A program made the translations under genes and the position numbers. Shown here piece by piece: positions 6,081 through 12,437 of a DNA stretch of 64,000 bases. The notes under the pieces are model-generated. The model had not been told where the DNA came from, did no database searches, and saw only the letters and a program-made list of their open reading frames with translations. The number at the start of each line of letters is the position of its first letter. The stretch's first letter is position 1. This stretch comes from Lachnospiraceae bacterium (lineage in GTDB: Bacteria; Bacillota; Clostridia; Lachnospirales; Lachnospiraceae): the NCBI GenBank assembly GCA_021202635.1, contig JAJQCQ010000085.1, positions 2,168 to 66,167 of the forward strand, given 5' to 3'.

Positions 6081-6098
6081 TGCTAACTACAGTTAGCA
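6081..6098. promoter_or_regulatory. GTTAG/CTAAC dyad at the pflB promoter
   Basis: Perfect 7-bp arms TGCTAAC and GTTAGCA around TACA, directly after the pflB -10 box. One of four related dyads (6579-6594, 10765-10780, 12420-12437). Confidence 0.6.
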
Positions 6099-6127
6099 TT
6101 ATATCACACTTGTGCGCAAACATATGC
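6098..6127 (-). promoter_or_regulatory. pflB promoter, extended -10
   Basis: Reading leftward, TGATATAAT (6106-6098) is an extended -10 box; the -35 region is weak (CATATG-like at 17 nt). The dyad at 6081-6098 touches its downstream edge, a position suited to repression. Confidence 0.6.
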
Positions 6128-6229
6128 ATTTTTTTCAATACATTCGCCGCCAAACGCAATTCCTGCCCAATACATTTGCTGCAAAGCGCTATTTCTGGCC
6201 ATTTCCGGGTCCCAGAGAACAGCTTCCGT

Positions 6230-6555
6230 TCAGCGCATTTCGACAGTCGCAGCAGTCATCCCGTAACCCAGCGTTTTTGTCCGGTGAAATCCATTTTTCA
6301 TATAATAAGCGACGATGTAATCTACCGCACATATGCCCGGCAGGATACCCTTTGCCTCAAACTTCTCGGCATAATTCTTCTGCAAATGCCAAATTTTCCT
6401 CCACTTCTATAAATACCAACAGTGTTCCAGGAGCTGCCTCACATTGTGCTTGGAATCCCAGGCGGCACTGTACTGGTAGATTTCCAGTGGCAGCAGGTTC
6501 CCGGCAACAGCAGGACAACAGGCTTGTTTTTGTCTCCATATTCATAAGTTTTCAT
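6230..6555 (-). pseudogene. Decayed alpha/beta-hydrolase gene fragment
   Basis: A start ATG at 6555 with AGGGGGG 7 nt upstream opens a peptide beginning MKTYEYGDKNKPVVLLLPG and continuing TCCHWK, a typical alpha/beta-hydrolase N-terminus (first strand plus oxyanion turn), but it stops after 38 codons. Another frame then reads a plausible C-terminus (KNYAEKFEAKGILPG... ending GMTAATVEMR) to a stop at 6230. No single frame spans the gene, and the region is far too short for an intact hydrolase. I read it as an internally deleted and frameshifted remnant that kept its promoter and operator. The C-terminal piece could come from a different gene. Confidence 0.5.
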
Positions 6556-6578
6556 ATCGTTTCCCCCCTCTACCAGTC

Positions 6579-6594
6579 GTTAGTAATAACTAAC
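6579..6594. promoter_or_regulatory. GTTAG/CTAAC dyad downstream of -10
   Basis: GTTAGTAATAACTAAC: 6-bp arms GTTAGT and ACTAAC. Same family and same position as the eno dyad; the two promoters also share the string TGTTACAAT at the -10 box. Confidence 0.6.
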
Positions 6595-6598
6595 TCGC

Positions 6599-6627
6599 AT
6601 TGTAACAGATACCAGGAGAGAAATCAA
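6599..6627 (-). promoter_or_regulatory. Promoter of the hydrolase remnant
   Basis: Reading leftward: TTGATT (6627-6622), 17 nt, TACAAT (6604-6599). The dyad at 6579-6594 lies 4 nt beyond the -10 box. Confidence 0.65.
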
Positions 6628-6679
6628 TGCGAAACCTGAACGATAACACACCAAATTAAACATCACCGGGCGATAAAAT

Positions 6680-6736
6680 ACCGCAAAAATAATGGAGCAA
6701 ATGCAGGGGCAGCTTATTCGTCCCGCACTTGCTCCA
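6680..6736 (-). terminator. Terminator of the siderophore importer operon
   Basis: Leftward: TGGAGCAAGTGCGGG pairs with CCCTGCATTTGCTCCA (one mismatch) around a ~13-nt loop, followed by TTATTTTTG. It lies about 90 nt after the binding-protein stop. Confidence 0.7.
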
Positions 6737-6827
6737 CATAAAGCCGAAAAATTTTAATCGTAAAGAAATCTGTCAACACAAATCAGGCGATTTTCATTAC
6801 GCGGCTTTCTTTATTATACTTATACGA

Positions 6828-7778
6828 TTATTCCTCTGCGAGCAGTGCGCTCTCCAGATCAGCGAGCATCGTATCCAGTGCGGTAATTCCGCCTTCTGCT
6901 GTGTACCACACGGCAGGATGCTCCAGATACACGATGTTGCCGTTCTGGTAAGCGTCCGTCTGCATCACCAGTTCATTTTCCATAATCTCCTGTGCCAGCT
7001 GCGCTCCTTCTGTCTGAATCGCCGCGTCACGGTCCATCACAAAAATGTAATCCGGGTTCTGCTCCAGAATTGTCTCAAAAGAAGACTCATTACCATGTGT
7101 TGAAGTTGAGTCTGCCGCAGTGAGATTCTCAAATCCGATCTCCACGCCGATGATGGAGCAGCGGCCATCGTTCCCAAGCAGATTGAAGCTGCCGCTGGTG
7201 CACATACCTACCAGCGCGGTCTTGCCCTCAGCTACCTCCTGAAGTGCTGCGATGCGATCATCAAAGGCTGTCATTTTTTCATCAATCTGATCCTCCAGTC
7301 CAAAGATGGAAGCGATTGTTGTCGCGTTCTTGCGGACACTCTCTACCAGACCGATCTCGCTGTCCGTCGCCAAATATACGACCGGCGCGATCTCGCTCAG
7401 GTCGTCATAAATAGAACTCAAACGGCCGCCGATGAAAATAATATCCGGCTCGCATTCCATAACCGCTTCCAGATCCGCTTCTTTGATATTACCGAGGTTC
7501 AGAATATTTTCATCTTCCGCATAGGAAGAAAGGTAATCGATCGATGTGCTGGCGGTACCTACTACCCGGTCGCCCAGGCCAAGATTATCAAGAATGTCCA
7601 GAGAAGCCAGGTCAAGGATCGCGATGCGCTCCGGGTCATATGGAACCTCTACCTCCGCTTCTTCGCCATCCGCATTCAATGCAGTAATGGTAATTGTTTC
7701 TGCTTCTTCCGCACAGCAGGCTGTACTGATTGTCATTGCCGCGACAAGTGCAGCGAAAATAAGTTTTTTCATTTTCAT
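6828..7778 (-). CDS. Siderophore/iron ABC transporter substrate-binding lipoprotein
   Basis: 316 residues. Starts MKMKKLIFAALVAAM with a lipobox-like ISTAC and a second Cys immediately after, so probably a membrane-anchored lipoprotein. The mature part is a helical-backbone periplasmic-binding protein of the FepB/FatB/YclQ class: DPERIAILDLASLDILDNLGLGDRVVG, then EADLEAVMECEPDIIFIGGR. Captures a ferric siderophore or related iron chelate. Last gene of the four-gene operon 10674-6828 and followed by a terminator. Ligand not predictable. Confidence 0.9.
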   Translation of the reverse strand: MKMKKLIFAALVAAMTISTACCAEEAETITITALNADGEEAEVEVPYDPERIAILDLASLDILDNLGLGDRVVGTASTSIDYLSSYAEDENILNLGNIKEADLEAVMECEPDIIFIGGRLSSIYDDLSEIAPVVYLATDSEIGLVESVRKNATTIASIFGLEDQIDEKMTAFDDRIAALQEVAEGKTALVGMCTSGSFNLLGNDGRCSIIGVEIGFENLTAADSTSTHGNESSFETILEQNPDYIFVMDRDAAIQTEGAQLAQEIMENELVMQTDAYQNGNIVYLEHPAVWYTAEGGITALDTMLADLESALLAEE

Positions 7779-7851
7779 AATCTCCTTTTATAAAGTACTG
7801 AAATAATAAAATCTGTAGTAACTGTGAAACTCTCTGCAGTTCCTGTTTTTC

Positions 7852-10723: not shown

Positions 10724-10764
10724 ACTGCTATCCGGTGAGTTTCTTAAAATTTTTATTAGCTTTT

Positions 10765-10780
10765 CCTAACAACTGTTAGG
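10765..10780. promoter_or_regulatory. GTTAG/CTAAC dyad downstream of siderophore operon -10
   Basis: CCTAACAACTGTTAGG: 6-bp arms around a 4-nt centre, 1 nt beyond the -10 box. Same half-sites as at 6081, 6579 and 12420. Confidence 0.65.
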
Positions 10781-10781
10781 G

Positions 10782-10810
10782 ATGATAACACAGATATGTC
10801 AGGAATGCAA
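10782..10810 (-). promoter_or_regulatory. Promoter of the siderophore importer operon
   Basis: Leftward: TTGCAT (10810-10805), 17 nt, TATCAT (10787-10782). Predicted transcription start falls inside the dyad. Confidence 0.7.
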
Positions 10811-10891
10811 GTATTTTTTTAAGATTTGAAAATCAAATGGCATGTGTGGGCTTTTGAAGAAGGCATATTCCTTACGCAGCCCTGCGCAATC

Positions 10892-10966
10892 GGATAGGGG
10901 AAACGCTCTTCTCCCCTATCCGCTGTGCCAAGCGCGAGTAGCGAAGCTACTAATTTCCACTCGCGC
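10892..10966. repeat. Compound extragenic palindrome between siderophore operon and eno
   Basis: Two neighbouring hairpins: GGATAGGGG (10892-10900) / CCCCTATCC (10913-10921), and GCGCGAGT (10932-10939) / ACTCGCGC (10959-10966) enclosing GTAGC-GAA-GCTAC (10938-10950). No ORF and no T-tract. It looks like a mobile or repeated palindromic unit rather than a terminator. The rest of 10811-10980 shows no gene. Confidence 0.55.
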
Positions 10967-10974
10967 CTGTGTAC

Positions 10975-11010
10975 ATAATAAAGGCCGGAAGTAACATAGA
11001 ACATCCGGCC
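10975..11010 (-). terminator. eno terminator
   Basis: Leftward: GGCCGGA, 14-nt loop, TCCGGCC, then TTTATTATG. About 20 nt after the eno stop. Confidence 0.7.
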
Positions 11011-11031
11011 GACTGATATGCTCCTATATTT

Positions 11032-12327
11032 TTATTTTTCAAAATTGAAAGCGCCAAATCCCGGATATACAGCACTCTCTCCCAGTTCTTCCTCAATGCG
11101 CAGAAGCTGGTTATATTTTGCCACACGCTCACTCCTGCTCGGTGCTCCAGTCTTGATCTGGCAGGTGTTTAAAGCAACGGCAAGATCCGCGATTGTGGTG
11201 TCCTCTGTCTCTCCGGAACGATGGGAAGCGATTGCCGTATAGCCCGCCTTGTGAGCCATCTTGATTGCTTCCAGTGTTTCCGATACGGAACCGATCTGGT
11301 TTAACTTGATCAGAATGGAATTGCCGCACCCCATACGGATTCCCTTCTGCAGACGCTCTGTGTTGGTCACAAACAGATCGTCGCCGACAAGCTGCACCCT
11401 GCCGCCGAGTTCTTTTGTCATGATCTGCCAGCCTTCCCAGTCTTCCTCATCCAGGCCGTCCTCGATGGAGTAGATCGGATACTTATCTACCAGACCTTTC
11501 CAGTGCTCTACAAGCTCCGCTGATGTGAATTTCTTCCCGCATTTTGGAAGGATATATTCGCCTTTCGCACTGCCTTTCCACTCACTGGAAGCGGCATCCA
11601 TCGCAAGCACGAAGTCCTTCCCCGGCTCATATCCGGCTTTCCGAATCGCCTCGATAATGTACTGAATCGCTTCTTCGTCGCTGGCCAGGTCTGGGGCAAA
11701 ACCGCCCTCATCCCCGACGGATGTCGCCAGTCCTTTCGCTTTCAGAAGGGCAGCCAGCGCGTGGAATACTTCTGTACACCATCTTAATCCTTCCCGGAAA
11801 CTCGGTGCACCCGCCGGCATGATCATAAATTCCTGCACATCCACCGTGTTTGCCGCATGGGCACCGCCATTTAGAATATTCATCATCGGAACAGGCAGAC
11901 GATTGCCGCTGATGCCGCCAAGGAACCGATACAGTGGAAGCTCCAGTGCTGTCGCCGCAGCCCTTGCACAGGCAATTGACACCGCAAGAATCGCGTTCGC
12001 GCCAAGGTTCGATTTGTCCTTCGTGCCATCCGCGCGGATCATCGCCGCATCGACCGCATAAATATCGCTTGCGTCCATCCCGACAAGCACATCATTGATT
12101 GTCCCATTGATATTCGCAACTGCCTTTTCAACACCTTTGCCGCCGAATCTGGATTTGTCGCCATCCCTTAATTCCAGTGCTTCAAACTCGCCTGTTGACG
12201 CGCCGCTCGGAGCCGCTCCCCTCGCGACAGTCCCATCTACGAGAGTCACTTCGGCCTCCACGGTCGGATTTCCTCTGGAATCAATGATCTCTCTTCCAAT
12301 TACTTTTTCAATTTTTAAATAGTCCAT
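11032..12327 (-). CDS. eno: Enolase
   Basis: 431 residues from the ATG at 12327, which has GGAGG 8 nt upstream; an upstream ATG at 12354 also has a ribosome site and would add nine residues not found in the family. Interconverts 2-phosphoglycerate and phosphoenolpyruvate. Signature pieces: [49 protein letters not shown] and SHRSGETED. Single-gene unit with its own promoter (12444-12472), dyad (12420-12437) and terminator. Confidence 0.98.
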
Positions 12328-12419
12328 CTCACTGTCCTCCTTCGGGTTTTCCATGGGTTCCTTCCTCCCTGTCCAGCAGTTACAGGGCAGAAAGGAGTGA
12401 CCATGGTTTATTCACGGGT

Positions 12420-12437
12420 GGTTAGTTATTTCTAACC
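12420..12437. promoter_or_regulatory. GTTAG/CTAAC dyad downstream of eno -10
   Basis: GGTTAG-TTATTT-CTAACC, 6 nt beyond the -10 box. Perfect 6-bp arms. Confidence 0.6.

Follow-up and report, generated by a model that had tools for sequence, protein, structure and literature searches.

The closest described systems are the iron-dependent repressors of the DtxR/IdeR type. A single IdeR dimer binds a half box in vitro, with the redefined consensus TTAGGNNNNCCTAA and an apparent dissociation constant (KD) of 78 nM (PMC8464063), and IdeR boxes overlap the -10 element or the start of the genes they repress, while the ligands Met10 and Cys102 favour Fe2+ (PMC10317159). No iron operator or regulon is described for Lachnospiraceae among the titles and abstract openings of the open-access literature matches listed. 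Members of this family are major gut fermenters. Under iron deprivation their fermentation shifts in favour of lactate and formate (PMC7478625). Here we describe four dyads at promoters within a 64,000-nt stretch of a Lachnospiraceae genome (the window; assembly GCA_021202635.1, contig JAJQCQ010000085.1, positions 2,168 to 66,167). They are probably the operators of a DtxR-family repressor encoded beside the feo genes, which would keep the promoters shut with ample Fe2+ and open in shortage. Coordinates given without a contig label are positions in the window, and G000 is the 3.98-Mb genome to which it belongs.

Proposed operators in the window

All four dyads lie where the initial annotation had placed them: CTAAC-N4-GTTAG at 6083-6096 and 10766-10779, and GTTAG-N6-CTAAC at 6579-6594 and 12421-12436. 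The two spacing classes it had seen in them reduce to one, as TTAG-N6-CTAA is common to all four sites. A search of the window for TTAG-Nk-CTAA with k from 0 to 15 returned four matches, all with k = 6 and exactly at the four promoters. Both N4 sites read CTAAC-N4-GTTAG-N6-CTAAT in full and so also contain the N6 dyad; N4 as a separate operator class is rejected, being the gap between neighbouring dimer sites. First-order simulation predicts 0.025 occurrences of each annotated pattern per window, and two of each are seen; 60 third-order runs gave no TTAG-N6-CTAA, against four in the window. Both simulations, together with the single-spacing comparison, rule out a chance origin, and the dyads are real.

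Each operator is on the minus strand and starts 1-7 nt past a -10 element. The pflB operator (CTAAC-N4-GTTAG-N6-CTAAT, 6072-6096) has its single-dimer core, GTTAG-N6-CTAAT, at 6072-6087 and follows an extended -10 at 6098-6108 (TGATATAAT / TGTGATATAAT). The siderophore-importer operon has the same arrangement (operator 10755-10779, core 10755-10770) behind the promoter TTGCAT-17-TATCAT (10782-10810). At eno2, a simple GTTAG-N6-CTAAC (12421-12436) follows TTGCGC-17-TACAAT (12444-12472), and the fourth site (6579-6594), also GTTAG-N6-CTAAC, follows TTGATT-17-TACAAT (6599-6627). Behind the latter is a decayed gene (6140-6560, minus strand), with three frames broken by stops, whose promoter and operator are still present. 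The 17-nt spacers reported for three promoters were recovered at eno2, the decayed gene and the siderophore operon. Two promoters do share TGTTACAAT, as had been noted, although the stretch common to eno2 and the decayed gene is actually 14 nt long, GTATCTGTTACAAT.

Distribution of the sites and the candidate regulator

Genome-wide counts refer to exact sites. GTTAG-N6-CTAAC occurs six times in G000 (reversed-pattern control, one), and allowing any spacing from 0 to 12 also gives six, so that all are N6. Two of them, at the decayed gene and eno2, are in the window. A third precedes a DUF2325-DUF3793-flavodoxin operon, at its promoter, and a fourth (G000:C104:1250-1265) lies to the left of the window, before an AraC-like gene and the MptD/Trep_Strep energy-coupling factor (ECF) importer that starts at the window's left edge. 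The fifth is at the feoA-feoA-feoB promoter, where it contains the -10 TATACT and is divergent from a gene for a 124-aa DtxR-family protein. Counting the two CTAAC-N4-GTTAG sites, both in the window, seven of the eight dyads are at promoters. The 'local regulon' of the initial annotation is therefore genome-wide, feo included; its shared operator and its link of iron uptake to fermentative and glycolytic genes stand.

The same spacing dominates among 25 genomes of the genus, where 119 of 137 matches to GTTAG-N(0..12)-CTAAC are N6 and the other 18 are spread over twelve spacings (the N6 pattern alone, 119 versus 23 for its reversed control). The examined sites among those listed for the genus have 68 reading frames beside them, some surely spurious (one of 69 was dropped for masked letters). 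Their neighbour families, among the 25 of 44 listed, include DUF2325 (7), DtxR domains (6), FeoA (4), ABC transporter and AraC (3 each), enolase, DUF3793, Peripla_BP_2 and methyltransferase (2 each) and Trep_Strep (1).

That the regulator was not obviously encoded in the window had been noted correctly: the candidate is on another contig (C43, L002:63-437), divergent from feoA-feoA-feoB. Its 124 aa hold a helix-turn-helix and a dimerisation domain only, matching PF01325 (35.5 bits, cut-off 26) and PF02742 (52.4 bits, cut-off 27) of the DtxR/IdeR/MntR superfamily; the two matches end at residue 118, and the SH3-like third domain is absent. On the DtxR equivalog profile it reaches 28.2 of 290 bits. 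Aligned across 80 orthologs, the best of 256 loci, the Met10 position is Asn and the Cys102 position Cys in every one, so the sulphur ligand pair of IdeR/DtxR is incomplete, though the Cys is kept. The metal ligands of the candidate are conserved in all 80. Against the NCBIfam cut-offs for MntR, the candidate scores 77.3 of 153 and 63 of 138 bits, with Cys for Glu. By the features compared, it is a DtxR-family protein that is neither IdeR nor MntR. Among the Fe_dep_repr_C matches in G000 it alone has CxxEH; the other two, readable only in part (one runs into the end of its contig), have SRMGH instead.

Could the sites belong to an MntR-type Mn2+ sensor, with the iron genes as bystanders? The nearest solved structures of the candidate are MntR (E 5.5e-11), it has Asn for Met10, and it lacks the SH3-like domain, as does MntR. 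The conserved Cys nonetheless replaces the Glu of MntR in every one of the 80 orthologs. The targets include feo, FecCD, FTR1 and flavodoxin, with no Mn importer among the 25 of 44 families listed, and we judge a manganese operator decidedly unlikely. The iron-uptake genes found among the targets are feo, FecCD, Peripla_BP_2 and FTR1.

Binding of the sites by the feo-linked protein is suggested by the upstream regions of its orthologs. After three of the 80 dtxR loci were dropped for having little upstream sequence, 44 of 77 carried an exact GTTAG-N6-CTAAC (one also with an overlapping N10). With one mismatch allowed, N6 was found at 49 loci, N10 at 12 and any other spacing at no more than 4. 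The exact site is present at 36 of 46 loci where feo is divergent, and at 8 of 31 otherwise.

In the wider order, a search for CTAAC-N4-RTTAG-N6-CTAA gave 35 matches, spread over 24 of 295 genomes, and its reversed control gave 13. From 26 inspected loci, ten neighbouring proteins were identified by Pfam: two Fur, and one each of FeoA, FecCD, FTR1, enolase, formate/nitrite transporter, DsbD, YjbR and NifH-like. Reading of the sequence added seven FeoA-like neighbours, one Fur-like and one FecCD-like. Some of the neighbours are 187-281 nt from the site, and several loci have no clear target. At nine loci (L264-L269, L271, L272 and L284) the complete array TTAG-N6-CTAAC-N4-RTTAG-N6-CTAA is present, which explains N4 as the gap between two dimer sites with centres 20 bp apart. 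At the pflB and siderophore promoters of the window, the -10 takes the place of the array's outermost half-site. At one of the order loci (L280, G182:C12), a three-half-site operator lies 92 nt before the formate/nitrite transporter gene, which fits formate export if pyruvate formate-lyase (PFL) is used. In another family of the order, the operator precedes Fur-family genes and lies between -35 and -10 (L257-L259).

Those last loci (L257 and L258 by Pfam, L259 by reading) raise the alternative that the sites are iron operators of another protein, either a member of the Fur family or another DtxR paralog, since regulators often control themselves. G000 has the two other Fe_dep_repr_C matches, and additional paralogs occur in relatives. 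Yet neither of those hits, as far as they can be read, has CxxEH, the site is in the dtxR-feo intergenic region at 44 of 77 loci (from the best 80 of 256), and DtxR-family sites have this same TTAG/CTAA spacing (PMC8464063). Judged by these points and by the DtxR-family matches of G000, another regulator appears unlikely, and the feo-linked protein remains the preferred candidate.

The dyads could also act as RNA hairpins in 5' leaders, through stability or attenuation, as their place immediately past the -10 means that they are probably transcribed, and a terminator scan flags the eno2 dyad, but on the plus strand. The feo site itself contains the -10, however, and the sites of other families (L257-L261) lie between -35 and -10, outside the transcript, which rules hairpins out as the general explanation. 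Half-site letters are kept and their distance is fixed, and we regard this alternative as extremely improbable. An Rfam search found no match at the operators. As a separate observation, a terminator-like hairpin with a T run (10705-10723, minus strand) lies between the siderophore operator and the first permease codon. Its fold is weak (z -1.6), and relatives have hairpins of unrelated sequence at the same place (L160, L162, L163 and L182; z -3.8 to -5.0), making attenuation before the siderophore permease possible.

Probable target genes and proposed iron sparing

The genes behind the window operators are all on the minus strand. PflB, pyruvate formate-lyase (3789-5987), matches TIGR01255 with 1133.5 bits (cut-off 994.2). 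The siderophore importer begins with a FecCD-family permease (9616-10674; PF01032, 200.9 bits), followed by a second permease (8633-9619) that was read from sequence and matches the first one weakly, an ABC ATPase (7852-8604) read in the same way, and a Peripla_BP_2 substrate-binding protein (6828-7778; PF01497, 127.5 bits). Eno2 (11032-12354) matches TIGR01060 with 662 bits. On the plus strand, the ECF importer occupies 37-2761, with an S component at 37-558 (PF09605 and TIGR02185) and frames at 555-1238 and 1235-2761 read as the T component and ATPase. A GA-cis RNA (RF02987, 50.2 bits versus a gathering score of 34.7) lies at 1584-1663 on the minus strand, inside the ECF ATPase frame.

Conservation in orthologous promoters, which the initial annotation had named as its test, holds in close relatives. 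For these counts, siderophore-permease hits below 35% identity, pflB hits below 50% and short enolase hits were dropped. CTAAC-N4-GTTAG-N6-CTAAT is kept in 4 of 4 pflB orthologs of at least 98% identity, TTAG-N6-CTAA in 6 of 6 siderophore-permease orthologs of at least 80%, and the exact site in 5 of 6 eno2 orthologs of at least 80%, one carrying two. Taking the 4, 4 and 3 closest orthologs at the pflB, siderophore and eno2 promoters, 1 of 40 half-site columns is variable, against 17 of 26 spacer columns. Among more distant pflB copies in the genus, one of 86% identity has ATTAG-N6-CTAAT at -255 and one of 55% has a one-mismatch site at -84.

The window enolase is a paralog and not the housekeeping gene. 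A canonical enolase about 57% identical to it is also present in the genome (G000:C21), and the site is absent from all 22 canonical genes whose upstream sequence is available (a 23rd has none), ruling out the idea that any enolase promoter would show it. In two genomes (G013 and G014), eno2 and pflB are direct neighbours, with no siderophore genes between them. An eno2-type enolase from another genus (L338 4590-7075, G190:C33; L278) is 83.5% identical to the window protein and 55-58% to canonical copies, and has the site in different surroundings; a CobW-type GTPase gene follows it. Elsewhere (L334, G010:C133:30000-37000), eno2 is followed by genes for AhpC, a disulphide reductase with a thioredoxin domain, and a second DtxR-family protein 50% identical to the feo-linked one.

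A recent local spread of one promoter copy, with the motif at eno2 and pflB kept by descent and without regulation, would account for the 14 nt common to eno2 and the decayed gene, and for the restriction of the pflB site to close relatives. Against it, half-sites are fixed while spacers drift, and in the other genus the eno2-type gene carries a site of its own amid other surroundings, so that descent alone seems most unlikely as the explanation.

Control by the feo-linked repressor would probably proceed as follows. One dimer would bind TTAG-N6-CTAA, usually as GTTAG-N6-CTAAC. Two of the promoters, those of pflB and the siderophore operon, have a third half-site (CTAAC) at a distance of 4 nt, and therefore a second dimer, centred 20 bp (two helical turns) away, could bind alongside. 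Since the sites start so close past the -10, the metal-loaded repressor would block RNA polymerase, and promoters would be shut with ample Fe2+. When iron is short they would open for siderophore and ECF import, Feo and flavodoxin (in place of ferredoxin), and also for PFL, in place of the Fe-S-rich pyruvate:ferredoxin oxidoreductase (PFOR), and the second enolase. A complete PFOR is encoded in the genome (a 1186-aa open frame, 1820.7 bits), and replacing it by PFL, and ferredoxin by flavodoxin, would save iron. We infer binding and Fe2+ sensing by the candidate, as well as the direction of regulation and its iron-sparing purpose, from sequence: the target genes suggest iron as the signal, and site position with family precedent suggests repression. 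The fuller proposal, that a two-domain repressor with a hybrid Asn/Cys metal site carries a Lachnospiraceae iron-starvation programme into glycolysis, taking in import, flavodoxin, PFL (sparing the iron of PFOR) and a dedicated eno2 through single-dimer sites or pairs two helical turns apart, is one we favour with some reserve.

Several observations weigh against this interpretation. One exact site in G000 (C63:9421-9436, L003) is between convergent genes with no promoter in view. Reversed controls in G000 exceed the real counts for CTAAC-N4-GTTAG (2 versus 8), GTTAG-N(0..12)-CTAAC (6 versus 83) and KTTAG-N6-CTAAM (7 versus 24), although reversal gives a poor null, TTAG/CTAA being rarer than the reversed words, and the case therefore rests on the spacing comparison. 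Exact sites are lacking at 33 of the 77 dtxR loci, and even one-mismatch sites at 28. Having Asn where IdeR has Met10 is an MntR-like trait. Only close relatives share the pflB site: within the genus, the copies with 79% and 77% identity lack one, and no GTTAG- or ATTAG-type site was found at 29 of 29 pflB loci examined elsewhere in the order (28 with 450 nt upstream and one with 166; 92 of 116 genomes had a match, most of them beyond these loci), two of which have TTTAG-N6-CTAAA at -348. The eno2 of G001 has no site (a fragment in G021 is uninformative). The PFL-activating enzyme itself bears an Fe-S cluster. Enolase uses Mg2+, and the iron-sparing idea gives no reason for including one. In C. 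difficile, pfl is reported to be reduced (PMC6311696).

With the site grammar defined precisely and a candidate regulator at hand, the question of an iron regulon in Lachnospiraceae can be tested directly. The grammar and the regulator also predict a role for the unexplained second enolase, and for a PFL/PFOR switch, which decides between formate and H2 output.

Comparison with known systems

The predicted target set resembles the response of C. pasteurianum to iron limitation on glycerol, where PFL spots rose 2.5-8.0-fold and flavodoxin 14.3-fold, early-phase enolase spots rose 4.1- and 4.8-fold, and two PFORs were higher with iron (PMC5395762). Those data are for protein and from another family, and in the text available they name no operator and do not show the enolase to be of the eno2 type (PMC5395762).

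The sites had been thought to differ in spacing from those of DtxR/IdeR, but their TTAG/CTAA distance equals that of the published 14-bp single-dimer site TTAGGNNNNCCTAA (PMC8464063). As with the IdeR/DtxR box TTAGGTTAGSCTAACCTAA, a one-dimer TTAG-N6-CTAA spacing is combined with placement on the -10 or start (PMC8464063, PMC10317159), and the Cys, Glu and His ligand group and the iron-uptake targets are also alike. Unlike the 19-bp overlapping double site, the sites here are single or are neighbours 20 bp apart. The inner bases of TTAGGNNNNCCTAA and the full 19-bp double box were not found, as spacers vary; the outer G/C is kept and the inner G/C of TTAGG/CCTAA is not, a further point against the reading proposed here. 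The candidate also differs from IdeR/DtxR in lacking the SH3-like domain, in having Asn for Met10, and in its anaerobic-metabolism targets.

With MntR, the candidate shares its two-domain size, Asn/Asp at the first ligand position and its nearest solved structures, but it differs in having Cys for Glu, in scoring below both NCBIfam cut-offs, and in its iron targets. The MntR box of B. subtilis differs from the sites found here. The type of regulator is thus already known, and it is the two targets in central metabolism, enolase and pyruvate formate-lyase, that are unusual.

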